Assembly: GCA_028873515.1 (NCBI GenBank) | Contig: JAGWIG010000002.1 | Span: 1 to 64,000 of the forward strand | Length of the DNA: 64,000 nt | Direction of reading: 5' to 3' | DNA from: Pseudomonadota bacterium | GTDB taxonomy: Bacteria > Pseudomonadota > Gammaproteobacteria > Burkholderiales > REEB80 | In this document: piece by piece, positions 14,231 to 64,000 of the stretch | Layout: each line of letters opens with the position of its first letter | Numbering within the stretch: the stretch's first letter is position 1 | Notes under the pieces: generated by a model | Databases searched by the model: none | Told to the model about the DNA's origin: nothing | What the model saw: only the letters and a program-made list of their open reading frames with translations | Made by a program: the position numbers and the translations under genes

Positions 14231-14611
14231 ATGGCAGAAATCAAATACAATATTAATATAAACATCGCAACCCGCTATCTAGCGGATCAATCTGATGCTG
14301 ATGAAGGTAGATTCATGTTTGCCTATACCGTAACTATAACCAATACTGGCAATATAGGTGTACAACTCATCAGCAGGCACTGGATTATCACCGATGCAAA
14401 CAACTCCATTCAGGAAGTTCGAGGAATTGGAGTCGTCGGTGAACAACCCCATCTCGCACCCGGGGAAGGATATCAATATACAAGTGGCACCCCTTTGGCA
14501 ACAACAATTGGCACCATGCGGGGTAGTTATCAGATGCTAGCAGATGATGGGACCCGTTTCGAGACACCCATCGAAGAATTTTTACTAAGCGTGCCTGGAG
14601 TCCTGCATTGA
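14231..14611 (+). CDS. apaG: ApaG protein (Co2+/Mg2+ efflux-associated)
   Basis: The 126-residue beta-sandwich protein has the signature blocks FAYTVTITNTG, SRHWIITDANN, EVRGIGVVGEQP and PGEGYQYTSG. The molecular role is still unclear; mutants in enterics have altered cobalt sensitivity. AGGA lies seven bases upstream of the ATG. In enterics apaG follows rsmA, but here it stands alone, divergent from rpe. Confidence 0.94.
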   Translation: MAEIKYNININIATRYLADQSDADEGRFMFAYTVTITNTGNIGVQLISRHWIITDANNSIQEVRGIGVVGEQPHLAPGEGYQYTSGTPLATTIGTMRGSYQMLADDGTRFETPIEEFLLSVPGVLH

Positions 14612-14655: not shown

Positions 14656-14751
14656 TTACTCATCACCCTCCCGCTTTCCCGGTCTGGCCCACCAGACAAT
14701 AATAACAAGGAGCACCAGGACTATTATGGATTCTACAGCAAACCATATCAT
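14656..14751 (-). CDS. Predicted 31-residue single-pass membrane protein
   Basis: A minus-strand ORF in the apaG-mltA gap with ATG at 14751, stop TAA at 14656-14658 and GGAG nine bases before the start. The peptide begins MIWFAVESIIVLVLL, forms one membrane helix and ends IVWWARPGKREGDE. The aromatic pair followed by a charged tail resembles CcoQ/FixQ-type small oxidase subunits, but no cco genes are in view and the match is only stylistic. It is too short for usual gene callers. No similar frame runs through the gap on the plus strand. Confidence 0.5.
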   Translation of the reverse strand: MIWFAVESIIVLVLLVIIVWWARPGKREGDE

Positions 14752-14812
14752 GTTCTTAGCTCCAGGATAACAAGCCACATATTCAGGTTACCCAATTATA
14801 AGGTTTTCTAAA

Positions 14813-16054
14813 ATGCACGGGGAAACATCCAAATTTAAATATATAAGTACTGTTATTCCATTCATCATTTCCATGTTTCTCTCATCCTGTACTACATCAC
14901 CGCCCCCCCCATTGCAAGCTTCAATTTTGCCAGCGGCAGTAAAATCCGCTGCGGTTCCCAAATATGCAAAAATGATTCCTGCATCCTACAATGATCTGCC
15001 CGAGTGGCAAAATGACAACCTTAATGGCGCATATGGAGCATTTTCAAGAAGCTGTTCAGCACTTGCTAGCCGGCCAGAATGGCAAGCGATCTGTAAAGCG
15101 CTCAAAACCGTGCCCAGACATCATCCGGATAGGTTTCGTCAATACCTCAAAAAATGGTTTAGACCCTATAAAATTGAAAATGCAAGCAATCAAGATACAG
15201 GACTTATAACCGGTTACTATGAACCCAGTCTTAAGGGTAGCCTAACCCCTGGCAACAAGTACCGCTTTCCTGTTTATGGAGTACCTTTTAATTTGATTGA
15301 CGTTGATTTAGCAGACCGTTACCCGAAGCTGGCTGGCCTAAGAATCCGTGGCAGACTCAAAGGGAGAACACTGGTTCCATACTATACCCGAGCTCAAATC
15401 GAGACCGAACCCTTTCTGACCAACGCACCCATACTATGCTATGTTGACAATGAACTCGATTTATTTTTTTTACAAATACAGGGATCTGGAAAAATCCAAC
15501 TGGATAATGGAAAAACCATTGCTATCGCATATGGTGATGAAAATGGGCAGCCTTATAAGGTCCTTGGCCAGATTCTTGCAAACGCAGGGAAAATATCCAA
15601 AACCAACATTAATATGCAATCTATCCTGAACTGGGGCAAGCTTCATCCAAATGAAATTACATACTACCTAGACATGAACCCCAGCTATGTCTTTTTTCGC
15701 CTGCTAGAAAATCCATCCCGTTCACCTGAAGGTTCCCTTGGAGAAACATTGACAGCAGGGCGTTCCATTGCTGTAGATAACCGCTACATCCCTTTGGGTC
15801 TACCCGTTTTTATTTCTTCCACATATCCGTATTCCAATGCTCCCATGAATCGACTGGTTTTTGCTCAGGATACGGGGGGAGCCATAAAAGGGCCAGTTAG
15901 GGCTGATTTCTATTTTGGAGAAGGTCAAGCTGCCGAACATAACGCAGGTCAAATGCAACAACCTGGGAGATTGTGGCTACTTTTACCTAAAACAGCAACT
16001 ATCTACAATTTTTGTCATGCCCCTACCTGTTACCTGGAAAAACCCAGTACATAA
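14813..16054 (+). CDS. mltA: Membrane-bound lytic murein transglycosylase A
   Basis: Outer-membrane lipoprotein that cleaves peptidoglycan to 1,6-anhydro-MurNAc products. The 413-residue protein has a lipoprotein signal with lipobox LSSC (cysteine near residue 26), the MltA domain with TGYYEPSLKGS, QGSGKIQL and VFAQDTGGAIKGPVRADFYFG, where the aspartates of the 3D domain include the catalytic one. Its stop lies 25 bp inside the convergent TonB-family gene. The product is the substrate source for AnmK at 1831. Confidence 0.95.
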   Translation: MHGETSKFKYISTVIPFIISMFLSSCTTSPPPPLQASILPAAVKSAAVPKYAKMIPASYNDLPEWQNDNLNGAYGAFSRSCSALASRPEWQAICKALKTVPRHHPDRFRQYLKKWFRPYKIENASNQDTGLITGYYEPSLKGSLTPGNKYRFPVYGVPFNLIDVDLADRYPKLAGLRIRGRLKGRTLVPYYTRAQIETEPFLTNAPILCYVDNELDLFFLQIQGSGKIQLDNGKTIAIAYGDENGQPYKVLGQILANAGKISKTNINMQSILNWGKLHPNEITYYLDMNPSYVFFRLLENPSRSPEGSLGETLTAGRSIAVDNRYIPLGLPVFISSTYPYSNAPMNRLVFAQDTGGAIKGPVRADFYFGEGQAAEHNAGQMQQPGRLWLLLPKTATIYNFCHAPTCYLEKPST

Positions 16055-57159: not shown

Positions 57160-57190
57160 GATAGCCCTGAAATTTTATTGCAGGGCTATC
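57160..57190. terminator. Terminator between rpoH and ctaB
   Basis: GATAGCCCTG/CAGGGCTATC, a 10-bp perfect stem with an 11-base loop. On the minus strand it is followed by ATTTTTCC and fits the end of ctaB, whose stop overlaps its first 2 bases. On the plus strand no T run follows, so for rpoH it would be weaker. Confidence 0.75.
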
Positions 57191-58085
57191 ATCCTCGGTA
57201 TAGGTAATGGTCAAGTAATAACGCAGCGAAAATCAGGGACAAATAAACAATGGAATAGCGGAAAGTCTTTTTTGCCAGTTCATCACTATAATGCCTAACG
57301 ATGGCTACTGCGTACCAGATAAAAATAAAATCCAAAATCAAGGCCGAAAAAAGATAAAGCTCATGGCTCATTCCAGATGCATAAGGTAGTAATGTAACAG
57401 CTGTTAGGATGAGTGTATAAAGCAATACATGTAAACGAGTATAATGATCTCCATGGGTAACCGGAAGCATTGGCATACCTACTTTTGCATATTCCTTTTT
57501 TCTATACAGGGCCAATGACCAGAAATGGGGTGGAGTCCATGCAAAAATGATTAGGAACAGCAATAAGGCATTTGCACTGACACTTCCTGTAACTGCGGCC
57601 CAGCCAAGCACGGGTGGCATGGCTCCTGATGCACCCCCAATCACTATATTCTGGGGGGTTACTGGTTTCAGTACAATAGTATAAATAATTGCATATCCAA
57701 TAAATGTCCCCAGAGTCAACCACATTGTCAATGAGTTAACCATGTTATCAAGCAACCATAAACCGATACCGCCTACCACAAGGGCAAAAACCAGCGTCTG
57801 AGATGAGGTTATAGTTCCTTGCGGCAAAGGACGGGCACGTGTACGCGCCATAACTGCATCAATCTTCTGCTCAACAAGACAATTAATTGCTGCAGCTGCA
57901 GCTGCCACCAAAGCGATTCCTGTTGTAGCTGATAACAAAATAGACCACGGCACCATATCAGGTGTGGCAAGAAACATCCCAATTACAGCAGTGAACACTA
58001 TTAGTGAAACTACATTAGGTTTGGTTAACTGCAAAAACTGAAAAGCACGACCCCATCTACGGGCATTTGACACAATAGCCGTCAT
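57189..58085 (-). CDS. ctaB: Protoheme IX farnesyltransferase (heme O synthase)
   Basis: Adds the farnesyl chain to heme B to form heme O for the aa3 oxidase. 298 residues, about nine membrane helices. The prenyltransferase site is [33 protein letters not shown] and [13 protein letters not shown] are conserved loops. It overlaps ctaA by 4 bp. Last gene of the cox assembly unit. Confidence 0.96.
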
Positions 58086-59074
58086 GACCTCCCCCTATAT
58101 CGATTTGAAGCATTATAAATAAGGTAGTTAATTGACGTAAGTGTCACCAGCAGCAAAGCTGCCCCAGCATTATGTGCAACTGCAACCGGAAGTGGCAAAC
58201 TCAATTCAACATTAGCTATTCCAAGTCCCATCTGGGCAAAAAGAAGCGCAAGCAATACAAAACCTAAATGCCTGAATCCTGGAACACGTTTTACTTTTAA
58301 AGCAAGCCAGCCTACATAGCAAAAAGTTATCAGGGCACCCACTCTATGCATCCAGTGAATCCCTACAAGTGCGGAATAATCCAAAGGCGCTCCCGAAGCC
58401 GTTTTCCCAAGATCCCTGAAGAGCTGGAATCCATGTGCCAAATCCATAGGAGGAACCCACTGGCCATTACAAGTCGGAAATCCAGTACAAGCAAGGGCAG
58501 CATAATTCGTGGATGTCCATCCCCCCAAACAAATTTGAACACAAATCACGACAAGAGCAATAATCGCATATGGACGTAATCTGACCGCATGTATAGAAGG
58601 GGGCACAAGTTCTGGGGGCGTCTGGCGCAACCCCAGCCAGGACAATAATGCAAGAGTTGTCATCCCACCAAGCAAATGAGCGCTCACGACTATGGGGCGT
58701 AAAAGCAGGGTAACTGTCCACATTCCCAGCAATGCCTGAAATATAACCGTTCCAACTATTGCCACAGGCAAGCCTAACCGTTCATGACGGCGCCATGATA
58801 AATAGGCTATTACAATAATAAGTGTCGCCAGTGTTCCAGCAAAATAGCGATGTATCATTTCCTTCCATGCTTTTGAAGCTATTACAGGTCTATTTGGAAA
58901 CGCAGATTCGGCCCTACTTATCTGGGCTGACGTATCGGGTGCACCAATCTGTCCATAACAGCCAGGCCAGTCCGGGCAACCCAGCCCTGCATTTGACAGG
59001 CGGACAAATGCCCCAAGCACTACAACACACAGAGCGAGCAAGGCGGTTAACCATATCAGTTTCTTGTATATCAT
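58082..59074 (-). CDS. ctaA: Heme A synthase
   Basis: Oxidises the C8 methyl of heme O to make heme A. 330 residues, eight membrane helices of the COX15/CtaA family. The first segment has [20 protein letters not shown]; heme-ligand histidines are in [28 protein letters not shown] and AVAHNAGAA. The periplasmic cysteine pair (CTGFPTC) is present. Confidence 0.95.
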
Positions 59075-59088
59075 GAATCATTCTCCAA

Positions 59089-59673
59089 CTAGCCTATGCT
59101 GGATGCCTCCAAGAGTCTATGCAGATCAGATGCAATATCCCCCATTGCAGGATGGGGGCCATAGCGCATCATCACATTTCCACGAGGATCCATTATAAAT
59201 ATTATTGCTTCCTGTCCTGACGGGATGGGTAGCTGACTTGAGATCTCTTTATCTGGATCCGCCACTTCCCAGGTCCCTGTAAAATATCTCTCAAGCTGAA
59301 AACCCGGTCTTGAATGACCCGTTACCAGCCAAACTCTTTCAATACGATTCCTGTCCAGATTCTCACTGATACGCACTTGACGCATTGCATAGAGCGCATA
59401 ACGACATTCCTTATCACAGCTACCAGGCGCTGACATGATCAATACCCATTTACCTTTCAGGGTATCAACGCTAAAACTTGTGCCATTTTCAAGCTTGGCA
59501 GATGCATTTTGCAGAGGTTTAGGAGGTAACAGCTCACCATGATTATCGAACGAATGTGGTCGGAACCAATAAAAAACAACGTACGCTGCAACTAAGGGGA
59601 CAAGGAATATCGATGCAATAAGCAATGCCTTTAATCTACCCCATTTAACCTTTCTTGATATAGCGTCTGACAT
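59089..59673 (-). CDS. Sco-like thioredoxin-fold membrane protein of the cox cluster
   Basis: A 194-residue protein with one N-terminal membrane helix and a periplasmic thioredoxin-like domain. GKWVLIMSAPGSCDKECRYALY carries a CX3C pair, the spacing used for copper binding by Sco proteins, and FIMDPRGNVMMRYGP is the Sco-like C-terminal part. Betaproteobacterial cox clusters usually carry this gene between SURF1 and ctaA. A role in CuA or disulfide handling is likely but inferred. It overlaps SURF1 by 29 bp. Confidence 0.82.
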   Translation of the reverse strand: MSDAISRKVKWGRLKALLIASIFLVPLVAAYVVFYWFRPHSFDNHGELLPPKPLQNASAKLENGTSFSVDTLKGKWVLIMSAPGSCDKECRYALYAMRQVRISENLDRNRIERVWLVTGHSRPGFQLERYFTGTWEVADPDKEISSQLPIPSGQEAIIFIMDPRGNVMMRYGPHPAMGDIASDLHRLLEASSIG

Positions 59674-60349
59674 ATAGGCCTATATAAATAATAATAATGG
59701 CTGCAGCCATCGCATACCACTGAAAAAAATATCCATAGTGCATAGCAACACCCATATCAGGACGCGGCCATATCCGGATCAGTCCATCATTTGTATCGTT
59801 GTCCTGCAAAATGACAACCGGCTGTAGGGGAAAAGATGCTTGACTTGCATAATCCTTTAATACCAGATTTTCCCAGACCCGGCCATTTACATTGCTACCT
59901 GACAATAACAAAAACCGCTTTGGGGGAATGGCAGCTATCCCTGTAACAACCTGAATTCCATGTGGTGGCACAGCTTGGGGGAGATGGCTTCGATCCCCAG
60001 TTGATTCCACAAAACCCCTGTTAACCAGAACATGCATATTACTCCCTGACAGCACCATCGGCGTTAATACATCGTATCCCACCTTATCATCAAGGCTTAT
60101 ATTATCGAGGTAGATTTGATCACGAGCATCAAACCGACCCTCCACCCTAACCCTTCTGTATTGCCAATCAGGCGCATAAACAGGTGTAACAGGCAAATTT
60201 ACCGGCGGTTCCTTCGCCATGGTGTCATATTGTTCAGCCTCAGATTCAGATCTATGAGCACGCCTAAGCTGCCAATTTCCAAGCGAAACAGTAAGCATCA
60301 CCATAATGATGGCTGCCACTGTAGGCAAAAAAACAGGACGACGCCTCAT
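59645..60349 (-). CDS. SURF1-family cytochrome oxidase assembly protein
   Basis: Helps deliver heme A to subunit I. The 234-residue protein has two membrane helices at its ends and the family motifs SLGNWQLRRAHRSE near the N terminus, YAPDWQYRRVRVEGRF, and VNRGFVESTGDR. Its last membrane helix (AAAIIIIYIGLYVRR) lies in the stretch overlapping the Sco-like gene. Confidence 0.92.
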   Translation of the reverse strand: MRRRPVFLPTVAAIIMVMLTVSLGNWQLRRAHRSESEAEQYDTMAKEPPVNLPVTPVYAPDWQYRRVRVEGRFDARDQIYLDNISLDDKVGYDVLTPMVLSGSNMHVLVNRGFVESTGDRSHLPQAVPPHGIQVVTGIAAIPPKRFLLLSGSNVNGRVWENLVLKDYASQASFPLQPVVILQDNDTNDGLIRIWPRPDMGVAMHYGYFFQWYAMAAAIIIIYIGLYVRRYIKKG

Positions 60350-60424
60350 AATCTTGTTCTCCTGATGATAGCTTCCCTCCTGAGTTTCCTATAAAATTCC
60401 CTAAATTCCGTAAGGAGTACCATT

Positions 60425-60622
60425 TTGAGATATGTTGTCTTCCTCTTCATTGCTCTCATACTTTACACGCTTGGACGAGCGCTTTACTTTGTCATGCACG
60501 ACAGAGGAGCTAGTGAACGAAGTGTTCGCGCACTTACTTATCGCGTTATTTTATCGATTACGCTGTTCGCTTTGCTAATGCTCGGATATAGGTTCGGTTA
60601 TCTTTCACCTCAAGGTCTCTAA
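60425..60622 (+). CDS. DUF2909 twin-transmembrane protein
   Basis: A 65-residue protein with two membrane helices (VFLFIALILYTLGRALYFV and a second starting VILSITLFALLMLGY) linked by a short charged loop RGASERSVRAL. DUF2909 members occur in cox clusters, usually opposite SURF1, as here. The start is TTG at 60425, seven bases after AAGGAG. No ATG gives the full first helix. Function unknown. Confidence 0.88.
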   Translation: MRYVVFLFIALILYTLGRALYFVMHDRGASERSVRALTYRVILSITLFALLMLGYRFGYLSPQGL

Positions 60623-60642
60623 CCCGGAGGAACCAAAAGATG

Positions 60643-60669
60643 GAGGCTGGCAGAGGAATGGCCAGCCTC
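60643..60669 (-). terminator. Terminator after coxC
   Basis: GAGGCTGGC/GCCAGCCTC with a 9-base loop. On the minus strand it is followed by CATCTTTTGG and lies 8 bp past the coxC stop. This divides coxA-to-coxC transcription from the SURF1-to-ctaB genes. Confidence 0.75.
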
Positions 60670-60676
60670 AGTGGAT

Positions 60677-61507
60677 TCACAGCCAATATACAAAAATAAA
60701 CAGCAGCAACCAAACCACATCCACGAAGTGCCAATACCACGCAGCAGCCTCGAAAGCAAAATGATGCTCAGGAGTAAAATGTCCTTTTAGGGATCTTACC
60801 AGCATCACGATTAACATGGTTGTCCCTAGCATCACATGTAAACCATGAAAACCCGTCAGCATAAAGAAAGTACAGCCATATACACCAGTAGATAGAGAAA
60901 ATGCTGCGTGGAGATATTCATGGGCCTGCAGGGTAACAAACGACAGGCCTAGAAGTACCGTCACCAATAAACCTAACTTTAGCTGGACTCGATTATTTTT
61001 TACTAGACCCCAATGAGCCCAGGTAAGAGTTGCGCCAGAAGTTAAAAGAATCAAGGTATTTATTGCTGGAATTCCCCAGGCTTGCATAGGGCGAAAAGCA
61101 TTCGTCAAATATGGTCCTGAGCTAGGCCAGCTCGCAACAAAATTCGGCCAAAGTAACTTTTGCGTAGCAAGCATCGGTACAGAGATTACTCGGGCATAGA
61201 ACAATGCACCAAAAAATGCTGAAAAAAACATAACCTCAGAAAAAATAAACCAGCTCATGGACCAACGGAATGAAGTATCGACCTGACGGTTATATCGACC
61301 ACTTTCTGACTCACGTATTACTGTTCCGAACCAGCCAAAAAGCATATAGACAAGAATAGCAAACCCAATGCCCAGCATTGGCAAGCCACCCTTTAAGTCA
61401 TTAAACAATAGCGTCGCACCAATAGCTAGGGATAACAGGGCCAATGAACCGACAATCGGCCATATGGACGGTGTCGGGACATAATACCCCTGTTTATTTT
61501 CGCTCAT
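60677..61507 (-). CDS. coxC: Cytochrome c oxidase subunit III
   Basis: Core membrane subunit of the aa3 oxidase. 276 residues, seven membrane helices. Conserved blocks: SFRWSMSWFIFSEVMFFSAFFGALFYAR with the buried Glu, QAWGIPAINTLILLTSGATLTWAH, YGCTFFMLTGFHGLHVMLGT and the C-terminal AAWYWHFVDVVWLLLF. Upstream of it lies the DUF2970 gene. Confidence 0.97.
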   Translation of the reverse strand: MSENKQGYYVPTPSIWPIVGSLALLSLAIGATLLFNDLKGGLPMLGIGFAILVYMLFGWFGTVIRESESGRYNRQVDTSFRWSMSWFIFSEVMFFSAFFGALFYARVISVPMLATQKLLWPNFVASWPSSGPYLTNAFRPMQAWGIPAINTLILLTSGATLTWAHWGLVKNNRVQLKLGLLVTVLLGLSFVTLQAHEYLHAAFSLSTGVYGCTFFMLTGFHGLHVMLGTTMLIVMLVRSLKGHFTPEHHFAFEAAAWYWHFVDVVWLLLFIFVYWL

Positions 61508-61567
61508 TTACTCCTCCTCTTTTGCTACAGCAAATTAATTTTTATTCGGCCAAATAAGCAAGAGCCC

Positions 61568-61777
61568 TCAGTGCGTTACAAAATAAACCAGTATCAGCAG
61601 GCTTAATACAAAAAACACCCCGCCCAACAGCCCCGCCACTACAATCTGCTTTAGCGTTAGCTGACTGAAATCAGCTGCATAATCCCGGTTTTTCCGTACA
61701 CCCAAAAAACTCCAGAATACAGCCGCCATTGCCCGCCACATTCCGCCCTTAGGTTTGCCATCATCTTTAACGTTCAC
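61568..61777 (-). CDS. DUF2970 small membrane protein
   Basis: A 69-residue protein with MWRAMAAVFWSFLGVRKNRDYAAD, the DUF2970 signature, and one C-terminal membrane helix (GGVFFVLSLLILVYF). It is a standard small member of betaproteobacterial cox clusters, located between ctaG and coxC. The GTG at 61777 has GGGGTGAG upstream. Function unknown. Confidence 0.88.
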   Translation of the reverse strand: MNVKDDGKPKGGMWRAMAAVFWSFLGVRKNRDYAADFSQLTLKQIVVAGLLGGVFFVLSLLILVYFVTH

Positions 61778-61859
61778 ACACTCACCCCATCCCAGCCACC
61801 AGAAACTGTTTGCATGAGATTCAAGAAATCATCTTAAGCCAATTACAGTGGCATCATAT

Positions 61860-62230
61860 GATAATACTGCAGAATTATCAGGCATAAAGCGCTTTTCTCA
61901 CACACTCATTTCAAGCAAAAAACCTGACATGTAACAATACTTTAGCTTTGCACTTACCCGTTACATTCAAAGCCACTATCAAAAAATCATACCAGGCTAC
62001 CCGTACAGTCCCTTGATTGAACAATGTAAAAATGGATATGCAACATCAGCAAATAACCATGAAAAACCAGTGTCCAAATTTACATCAAGATACACCCGAT
62101 CCTGGGCGACCTATACGGAAAAACCATTAACTGACTGGCATTTAACCTAAACACCAGCCATTCCAGCTATAGCGAAAAACCTGGAATAAACAGGGGTAAT
62201 CAACTACAGCCAGGCATCTTGGCTAAACAT
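61860..62230 (-). pseudogene. Probable remnant of ctaG (cox11)
   Basis: In most related clusters ctaG, the CuB-insertion factor, lies between the small assembly protein and DUF2970. Here about 500 bp of that slot has no ORF. One minus-strand frame from the ATG at 62230 contains MF, then LITPVYSRFFAIAGMAG (compare ALVPxYxxFCxxxGLxG of CtaG), then RVYLDVNLDTGFSWLF (compare RxVxVxFDxNVxxGLPWxF), at about the right spacing but crossed by three TAG stops and later frame loss. The CFCF copper site is not recognisable. Call rests on synteny plus two short matches. Confidence 0.42.
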
Positions 62231-62279
62231 TACTCAATTTATAAAAATGGAAAGTTGTCTCTTGATGCTCCTACTGTCT

Positions 62280-62381
62280 TCAGTGCCAATGAAGAACAAT
62301 TTCCCATATATATAATATGAAAGCCAGAATACCCAGTATCAGCCCGGTCAGCTTCGTCCGTCGCGCTTGTCTTGGATTCAC
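62280..62381 (-). CDS. Small cytochrome oxidase assembly-type membrane protein
   Basis: A 33-codon ORF starting at GTG 62381, six bases after GAGGG, and ending TGA at 62280. It starts VNPRQARRTKLTGLI and continues as a single membrane helix to IVLHWH. The Arg/Lys-rich start followed by one helix is the form of the tiny proteins downstream of coxA in betaproteobacteria. A longer 82-codon frame over the same DNA (62239-62487) is a shadow. Confidence 0.65.
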   Translation of the reverse strand: MNPRQARRTKLTGLILGILAFILYIWEIVLHWH

Positions 62382-62483
62382 GCTTTCCCTCTTTTATAGA
62401 GCTTCTAATCAACAAACCTGAAGTATAAAACATTATGCATACATAAAACGTGGCGGGGGCATGTATATGACCCCCGCTCCGAA

Positions 62484-64000
62484 TCACTTAACTACAGGCG
62501 GAGTCTGAAATGAATGGTAAGGTGCTGGAGAAGGTAGCGTCCACTCAAGCGAATCAGCACCCTCCCAAGGCTTGCTAGGCGCCTTCTTCCCGCCACGAAT
62601 ACATTTCAACACTACTACCAGGAATATAAGCTGTGACATACCCAACAGGAATGCACCGACCGAAGCCACCTGATTAAATGTCGTAAATTGTAACGCATAA
62701 TCCGGTATCCGACGTGGCATTCCTGCCAACCCAAGAAAATGCATCGGGAAGAATGTAATATTGAAAGCAATTGTTGTCGTCCAGAAATGAAGCTTGCCAA
62801 GCCGTTCGTCATACATATGGCCTGTCCACTTCGGTAACCAGAAATAAACTCCTGCCATTATGCTCATTGCAGCACCAGAAAAAAGCACATAGTGGAAATG
62901 AGCCACCACATAATAGGTATTATGAAGCTGGATATCCACTGGAACGAGTGCCAGGACAAGACCTGAAAAACCACCAATTGTAAACAGACAGACGAATGCA
63001 ATAGCAAACAGCATGGGAGTTTCAAAAGTCATTGAACCTCTCCACATCGTAGCCACCCAGTTAAATACCTTTACTCCGGTTGGTACCGCAATCAACATTG
63101 TGGCATACATGAAAAATAGCTGCCCTGCAGCCGGCATCCCAACGGTAAACATGTGATGCGCCCAAACTGTAAATGACAGAATCGCAATTGATGCCGTTGC
63201 ATAAACCATCGATGCATAACCAAAAAGGGGCTTACGTGCAAAAGTAGGAATGATTTGTGAAACTATTCCGAATGCTGGCAAAATCATGATGTAGACTTCA
63301 GGGTGACCAAAAAACCAGAAGATATGCTCGTACATCAAGGGATCACCGCCGCCTGCAGGATTAAAAAAATGGGTCCCAAAATGACGATCCGTCAAAAGCA
63401 TTGTAACCGCGCCCGCAAGTACTGGCATAACTGCTATAAGTAGATATGCCGTAATAAGCCATGTCCAGACAAACATCGGCATTTTCATGAGAGACATGCC
63501 AGGAGCACGCAAATTCAATATCGTAGTAATGATATTAATCGACCCCATTATCGATGAAATTCCCATGAGATGGATGGCAAAAATAGTCATATCCATTCCC
63601 ATGCCCATTTGTATGGATAAAGGCGGGTATAGCGTCCAGCCTGCAGCAGCAGCGCCTCCTGGAACAAAAAAAGAACCGAGCAGTAGAAGTGCAGCAGGGG
63701 GCAGCAACCAGAAACTCCAGTTATTCATCCGGGCAAACGCCATATCCGGCGCACCAATCATCATTGGAACCAACCAATTAGCAAAACCCACAAATGCAGG
63801 CATAATGGCACCAAAAATCATTAACAGCCCATGAAGTGTCGTCAGCTGGTTAAAGAAATCCGGCTGGAAAAACTGAAGACCAGGCTCAAAGAGCTCGGCA
63901 CGGATCATTAAAGCCATGCTCCCGGCTGACAGGAACATGATCAAACTAAACCAAAGGTAAAGAGTGCCAATATCCTTATGATTGGTTGTGGTTAACCAAC
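62484..64000 (-). CDS. coxA: Cytochrome c oxidase subunit I (5' end beyond window)
   Basis: Catalytic subunit of aa3 oxidase. The frame is open to the window edge (WLTTTNHKDIGTLYLWFS), so the true start lies beyond 64000. Heme and copper ligands are visible: TTLHGLLM (heme a His), GHPEVYI (CuB His and the cross-linked Tyr), VWAHHMFTVG (CuB His pair), and NTYYVVAHFHYVLFSG (heme a3 and heme a His). PxxGGGDPLMYEHIFWFFGHPE is intact. coxB would be expected upstream. Confidence 0.97.
   Translation of the reverse strand, partial: WLTTTNHKDIGTLYLWFSLIMFLSAGSMALMIRAELFEPGLQFFQPDFFNQLTTLHGLLMIFGAIMPAFVGFANWLVPMMIGAPDMAFARMNNWSFWLLPPAALLLLGSFFVPGGAAAAGWTLYPPLSIQMGMGMDMTIFAIHLMGISSIMGSINIITTILNLRAPGMSLMKMPMFVWTWLITAYLLIAVMPVLAGAVTMLLTDRHFGTHFFNPAGGGDPLMYEHIFWFFGHPEVYIMILPAFGIVSQIIPTFARKPLFGYASMVYATASIAILSFTVWAHHMFTVGMPAAGQLFFMYATMLIAVPTGVKVFNWVATMWRGSMTFETPMLFAIAFVCLFTIGGFSGLVLALVPVDIQLHNTYYVVAHFHYVLFSGAAMSIMAGVYFWLPKWTGHMYDERLGKLHFWTTTIAFNITFFPMHFLGLAGMPRRIPDYALQFTTFNQVASVGAFLLGMSQLIFLVVVLKCIRGGKKAPSKPWEGADSLEWTLPSPAPYHSFQTPPVVK

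Follow-up and report, generated by a model that had tools for sequence, protein, structure and literature searches.

The short minus-strand open reading frame between apaG and mltA in the window, the term used here for the whole 64,000-nucleotide stretch that was analysed, belongs to a real and widespread family of one-helix membrane proteins that is apparently uncatalogued. The presence and absence of this small gene tended to go together with those of the aa3 oxidase, and for this reason the protein is probably a helper or subunit of that enzyme. We consider its being an accessory subunit or an assembly/stability factor of the betaproteobacterial aa3 (A-family) cytochrome c oxidase to have a slightly better than even chance. 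In form the protein is best read as CcoQ-like, and not as CcoQ itself.

The small gene and its family

The minus-strand frame (14751-14659, followed by TAA at 14656-14658) was translated to MIWFAVESIIVLVLLVIIVWWARPGKREGDE (31 aa), while an alternative in-frame GTG at 14778 would give a 40 aa product. As the earlier note had claimed, the frame is antisense to nothing functional; it sits in the intergenic gap of 201 bp from the apaG stop (14611) to the mltA start (14813). The ATG, the well-placed GGAG (8 nt) and the single helix that the note had read from the DNA were also borne out, the helix by AlphaFold2, which on the family alignment gave one helix over residues 2-22 with a pLDDT of 94-96 over residues 1-20. 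The promoter scan of the window copy returned one site only, located inside the ORF and at chance level, and no strict promoter. TATAAT-like words were found upstream of 75 members 36 times against 13.1 expected, approximately 2.8-fold over base shuffles, an excess at varied positions that was compared against base shuffling only.

Table 1. Features of the window relevant to the small gene and its proposed partner
Feature	Position	Strand	Basis
Small membrane-protein gene, 31 codons + TAA	14656..14751	-	Homologues; purifying selection in related genus
Shine-Dalgarno-like GGAG, 8 nt before ATG	14760..14763	-	Read directly from sequence
Predicted transmembrane helix, residues 2-22	14686..14748	-	AlphaFold2; topology from positive-inside rule
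Codon of Glu7, kept in 138/142 members	14731..14733	-	Profile-based member set
Codons of W20-W21-A22; family consensus WWT	14686..14694	-	Sequence and 142-member set
TATAAT, candidate -10 element (weak)	14795..14800	-	Not listed by promoter scanner
apaG, common convergent neighbour	14231..14611	+	Pfam DUF525/ApaG
mltA, usual divergent neighbour; small gene can occur without it	14813..16054	+	Pfam MltA and 3D
COX1 (CtaD), aa3-type, runs off the window; proposed partner	62484..63998	-	Pfam COX1, 555 bits
CtaB, CtaA, 194-aa protein, SURF1, COX3, DUF2970 (rest of aa3 cluster)	57189..61777	-	
DUF2909, within aa3 cluster	60425-60622	+	

At E<=1 the single sequence of the window copy found matches in 152 of the order's 300 sampled genomes (best E 3.5e-6). 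A family profile built from 61 homologues matched 158/300 at E<=0.01 and 142/300 at E<=1e-5 (best E 7e-20), nearly always with one copy per genome. When a sample of the phylum was searched, 26 of 398 genomes matched at E<=0.001, and all 26 belonged to the same order, which we infer to be the broadly defined Burkholderiales of GTDB because the named apaG-derived records were mostly from Betaproteobacteria or Burkholderiales. At the genus level, the small gene was present in 55 of 58 genomes of one genus and in 7/7 of another. The three matchless genomes of the former (G678, G695 and G714) are 2.8-3.8 Mb in more than 500 contigs, and a loss of the small gene with genome decay is possible there.

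The unannotated 31-residue minus-strand membrane ORF put forward by the earlier note thus proved to be real, judging from the homologues in 142/300 genomes and from the synonymous substitution pattern that the note had proposed to check. One related genus supplied 27 distinct sequences (28 codons), for which pN/pS of the coding frame was 0.115, versus 0.25-4.8 in the other five frames (shifted sense, 2.9; antisense, 0.25, 1.66 and 4.8). Within this genus, selection acts strongly on the small-gene frame. Besides Glu7, the members conserved Trp20 (128/141), Trp21 (125/141) and Thr22 (137/141), and 139 of the 142 carried two or more K/R within positions 23-30, forming a basic C-terminal tail. Across the 142 members only one K/R was located in positions 1-6 versus 663 after position 22, and therefore, by the positive-inside rule, an N-out/C-in topology is predicted. 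These conservation figures came from the profile-based set only (142 members); the collection gathered with a regular expression was not used for them because its pattern demanded Glu and T/A. Four rows of the 142 had no Glu, two of which (G182 and G273) look shifted by one place. The window copy is divergent, with a profile score of 47.5 bits versus up to 72.6 in the family and with A where the family has T at the third place of WWT; E7, WW and P24 are kept.

One of the 142, in G080 (L278; 98% complete and Cox11-positive), has an in-frame stop near the helix end, through either damage to the gene or a sequencing error; conservation and context were read from just the first 19 residues of this copy. 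In one genus (L146 and L174-L202) an in-frame ATG nine codons upstream was conserved in all 30 loci read, the extension reading MSDLFDEYP in most of them, and therefore the N-terminus is probably longer in that genus. Sixteen genomes with weak profile matches (1e-5 to 0.01) were left out of the 142. Among these, G004 and G060 showed the expected context and G124 adjoined apaG; G162 resembled G124, by sequence only, the match of G079 was part of a larger frame, and G175 and G257 were CcoQ-like by neighbours or tail. Further weak matches were those of G035, G040, G084, G128, G197, G206, G269, G287 and G295.

Wherever a Pfam or NCBIfam cut-off was available, the match stayed below it, both for the window copy and for the 20 members rescanned per library (E<=0.05); some members were in both rescanned sets, and the all-member tables of 61 are without cut-offs. 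The nearest in the rescans was LPXTG_anchor, at 15.0 versus 15.9. The strongest Pfam resemblance was to QcrA_N (PF19297), matched by 12 of the 61 members at E<=1, and membership was rejected as the best score (22.8 bits) is under the cut-off of 27. ComGE (9 members with Pfam, 12 with NCBIfam) and PP0621 (6 members) were weak matches and were likewise rejected, no rescanned member (20 per library) having reached a cut-off, in a set that may or may not include those with the best NCBIfam score for ComGE. Searches of the PDB by the family profile and by one member matched no chain, and searches of the open-access literature in PMC gave nothing describing the small-protein family.

The earlier note had also suggested looking for the same ORF in related apaG-mltA gaps, and it was indeed found there. 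The small gene was divergent from mltA in 119 of 142 contexts, and in 87 of these it was also convergent with apaG; f49 was counted as an mltA neighbour although its mltA match overlaps the start of the small gene. In 15/142 it was divergent from an ABC exporter (four of these with apaG), and the remaining 8 adjoined apaG with a 5' neighbour that was other or unread. The divergent neighbour in L153-L158 (f21), L159-L161 (f32) and L162 (f13) was an ABC exporter of about 600 aa; the three ABC proteins scanned had MsbA-like domains, yet scored under the MsbA cut-off. The small gene was never inside the cox cluster in the 142 contexts, all of which showed an mltA, ABC or apaG neighbour.

Co-occurrence with the aa3 and cbb3 oxidases

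Cox11, FixO and MltA were the only markers profiled across the genomes, and CtaG/Cox11, an assembly factor of the aa3 oxidase, was used as the aa3 marker. CtaG_Cox11 was detected in 193 of the 300 genomes of the order. Both genes were present in 135 genomes and both absent in 100, while 7 had the small gene only and 58 had Cox11 only, corresponding to an odds ratio of 33. When Cox11 was shuffled within families, the observed overlap was reached in none of 20,000 permutations; over the 13 informative families of this stratified test, which left out the 3 of the 300 genomes that had no family label, the overlap was 43 versus 35.1 expected. The control with FixO of the cbb3 oxidase, present in 223/300, showed an odds ratio of 0.96 with the small gene and a null permutation result, and 118 of the 223 cbb3-bearing genomes were without the small gene.

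Four of the seven genomes with the small gene only were 68-87% complete (G072, G122, G143 and G163). The other three were G083 (97% complete), G240 (95%) and the window's own genome, which gave no Cox11 match, yet possesses an aa3 COX1. That 58 Cox11-positive genomes had no confident small gene counts against a function with aa3; some of them have a different clade of COX1, and diverged members may exist in a few.

Eight genomes of known small-gene and Cox11 status, including the congeneric pair G000/G001, were picked as contrasts. The COX1 of the small-gene carriers G101, G285 and G165 was 78-82% identical to that of the window, whose own genome was the fourth carrier. In the non-carriers G001, G042 and G009, the best COX1 was 42-44% identical, about 680 aa long and quinol-oxidase-like by length, and in the non-carrier G034 it was 24% identical. 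G001, the only congener in the collection, is without both the aa3 oxidase and the small gene.

The COX1 phylogeny was then examined in a non-random sample. From 40 cox loci, consisting of 20 of the 58 Cox11-positive small-gene-negatives and 20 positives, 39 COX1 sequences were obtained, and four more positives (contrast genomes and the window) brought the number to 43. In the midpoint-rooted tree, neither clade 1, with 11 sequences, nor an isolated pair had the small gene (0/13). COX1 clade 2, which includes the window's sequence (n=30), contained 24 positives, three of which (G004, G124 and G269) rest on weak profile matches, and 6 negatives. Five of these negatives (G028, G038, G059, G131 and G158) had no match listed at E<=0.01, and G040 had a weak match but was counted as negative. 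G230 carries the small gene together with a clade-2 COX1, although in a tree of mltA, apaG and rpe it is nested among small-gene-negatives (enclosing clade supported at 1.0). Clade 1 is the COX1 type of the three f14 genomes shared by the two trees, and of f43 the comparison covers G230. Scanning of the mltA locus in 11 Cox11-positive small-gene-negatives gave nothing better than 4.0 bits, scanning of the same 11 with 2 Cox11-negatives and G001 gave nothing above 6.0 bits, and no family-profile match above 8.0 bits was obtained in the 40 cox loci. The absence of the small gene there was therefore not due to a copy moved into the cox cluster.

Proposed role and alternative explanations

Occurrence together with the aa3 oxidase, as for an accessory subunit of that enzyme, was observed, and exceptions exist. 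The earlier note had suggested that the peptide may stabilise a membrane complex; an oxidase role is now the best reading of such a function, and the oxidase tracked was aa3, not cbb3. The protein would cross the inner membrane once, with the Glu near one end of the helix, the WWT at the other and the basic tail beyond. The helix would pack against the oxidase core, where Glu7 could meet a polar or basic partner, and the small gene would presumably be expressed apart from the cox operon. In the simplest account, it would be an ancestral partner of a betaproteobacterial aa3 oxidase, and its gene would have disappeared with the loss or replacement of this oxidase. A more tentative proposal, for which we would give somewhat less than an even chance, is a stoichiometric aa3 subunit of one large betaproteobacterial branch, with a gene distant from the cox operon and a membrane-embedded Glu that may act in packing or in proton/ion handling at the outer side of the complex. 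Against a function with aa3 are G083 and G240, which carry the small gene without Cox11, G080, whose copy has an in-frame stop in the presence of Cox11, the clade-2 genomes without the small gene, the location of the small gene outside the cox cluster and the missing Cox11 match in the window's own genome. A correlation does not imply contact, and the actual partner may be some other trait that disappears along with the aa3 oxidase.

Such a partner might be another aerobic membrane process gained and lost with aa3, such as a bc1 supercomplex, a haem/copper carrier or the lipid environment, with no binding of the small protein to the oxidase. This is rather unlikely, though it deserves the most weight among the alternatives: it would agree with the location of the small gene outside the cox cluster and with the resemblance to QcrA_N, part of a bc1-complex subunit, and the association was obtained from three profiled markers. 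However, beyond the presence of aa3 the small gene also tracked one clade of COX1, and more than half of the cbb3-bearing genomes were without it. A function with the lytic transglycosylase MltA or in cell-wall turnover is considerably less likely. The divergent arrangement with mltA has a shared intergenic region that would permit co-regulation, but in the 15 contexts with an MsbA-like ABC exporter mltA is replaced in that position, and from these the mltA neighbour is probably incidental. MltA matches were found in 266/300 genomes versus 142/300 for the small gene, and among 20 listed of the 34 MltA-less genomes four had a family member at E<=1e-5 (G048, G067, G091 and G143, the last only 84% complete); G124, also MltA-less, has a weaker match. 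As carriers without MltA exist and mltA is present in the congener G001 where the small gene is not, the link looks positional, and a requirement for MltA was rejected.

That the protein is a diverged CcoQ/FixQ and a subunit of the cbb3 oxidase is very improbable. The earlier note had remarked on a CcoQ-type tail, and the resemblance of the IVWW end (IVWW-x-x-x-(R/K)) holds, whereas membership does not: FixQ (PF05545) scored 14.5 bits against the window copy versus the Pfam cut-off of 29, with 4 of 61 members matching at E<=1 (best 0.035). The family profile in turn weakly finds CcoQ, scoring 24.3 bits in G175 (L171), where the neighbours are cco-like by gene length, and 22.9 bits in G257 (L295), where the tail reads like CcoQ; weak second matches occurred just downstream of FixO in G029 and G283. 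The small gene was never in a ccoNOQP cluster, the host genome gave no cbb3 FixO match, and the 300 genomes showed no cbb3 association, so that membership is already largely refuted. The resemblance hints at remote common ancestry or at convergence of the IVWW-(R/K) end. It is also highly unlikely that the frame is a chance one, functionless in this genome. The earlier note had named stops or frameshifts in close relatives as evidence against the ORF, and the gap of G001 indeed holds no such ORF and its genome no profile match, in addition to the stop in G080 and the divergence of the window copy with its A for T. G001 is, however, also without aa3, and the window copy belongs to a family conserved throughout, keeps E7, WW and P24 with an intact Shine-Dalgarno sequence and ATG, and resides in a genome that has retained the aa3 operon.

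Comparable small subunits and the aa3 cluster of the window

The likeness to CcoQ/FixQ, which extends to the one helix, the IVWW-x-x-P/S-(R/K)-type end at the inner interface, the basic tail and a length of tens of residues, is set against a near-invariant Glu7, a different genome context and the tracking of aa3 instead of cbb3. Subunit IV (CtaH) of the Paracoccus/Rhodobacter aa3 oxidase, a small one-helix extra subunit (PF07835), would be the same kind of part. The CtaH sequence differs from that of the small protein, and PF07835 was absent among 25 listed of the 27 Pfam families matched at E<=1 by any of the 61 members. CcoM is a 36-aa subunit of the Pseudomonas stutzeri cbb3 oxidase and is cited as a case in which a small protein had been overlooked (PMC10433244); it is alike in size and in being a small oxidase subunit, but belongs to another oxidase and lineage, and the family profile had no PDB match. 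Subunit IIa of B-type ba3 oxidases, a helix of 34-41 residues that is not always annotated, is similar in size and differs in the oxidase type and in its location, its gene lying beside that of subunit II in the oxidase operon (PMC3128077). CydX of cytochrome bd is likewise a very small oxidase subunit in which an acidic residue is conserved, comparable to Glu7 here, and its motif is YxxWxxGx15E/D (PMC4325964). As the family positions do not show this spacing and CydX belongs to the bd oxidase, membership was rejected on the motif as given there.

Annotation has overlooked single-helix oxidase subunits time and again, and it was structures or mass spectrometry that brought them to light. In the sampled part of the order, roughly one genome in two appears to carry the present family, which has no Pfam/NCBIfam entry and no cox-operon address, and its distribution points to one partner. 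If an unassigned helix appears in a betaproteobacterial aa3 structure, the small peptide is its likely identity. The small gene is also a marker separating the two COX1 clades.

The PDB chains nearest to the COX1 of the window were cytochrome c oxidases, aa3 enzymes included. In other betaproteobacteria, ctaG/Cox11 usually sits between COX1 and DUF2970. No recognisable ctaG/Cox11 was found in the corresponding region of the window (61778-62483, minus strand), where the three minus frames are broken by stops, and the whole host genome gave no Cox11 match. Just downstream of COX1 lies a 33-aa ORF with a GTG start (62280-62381, minus strand), which falls below most annotation limits. It has a basic start and one hydrophobic stretch, and presumably corresponds to the small cox assembly ORF placed there in other betaproteobacteria.
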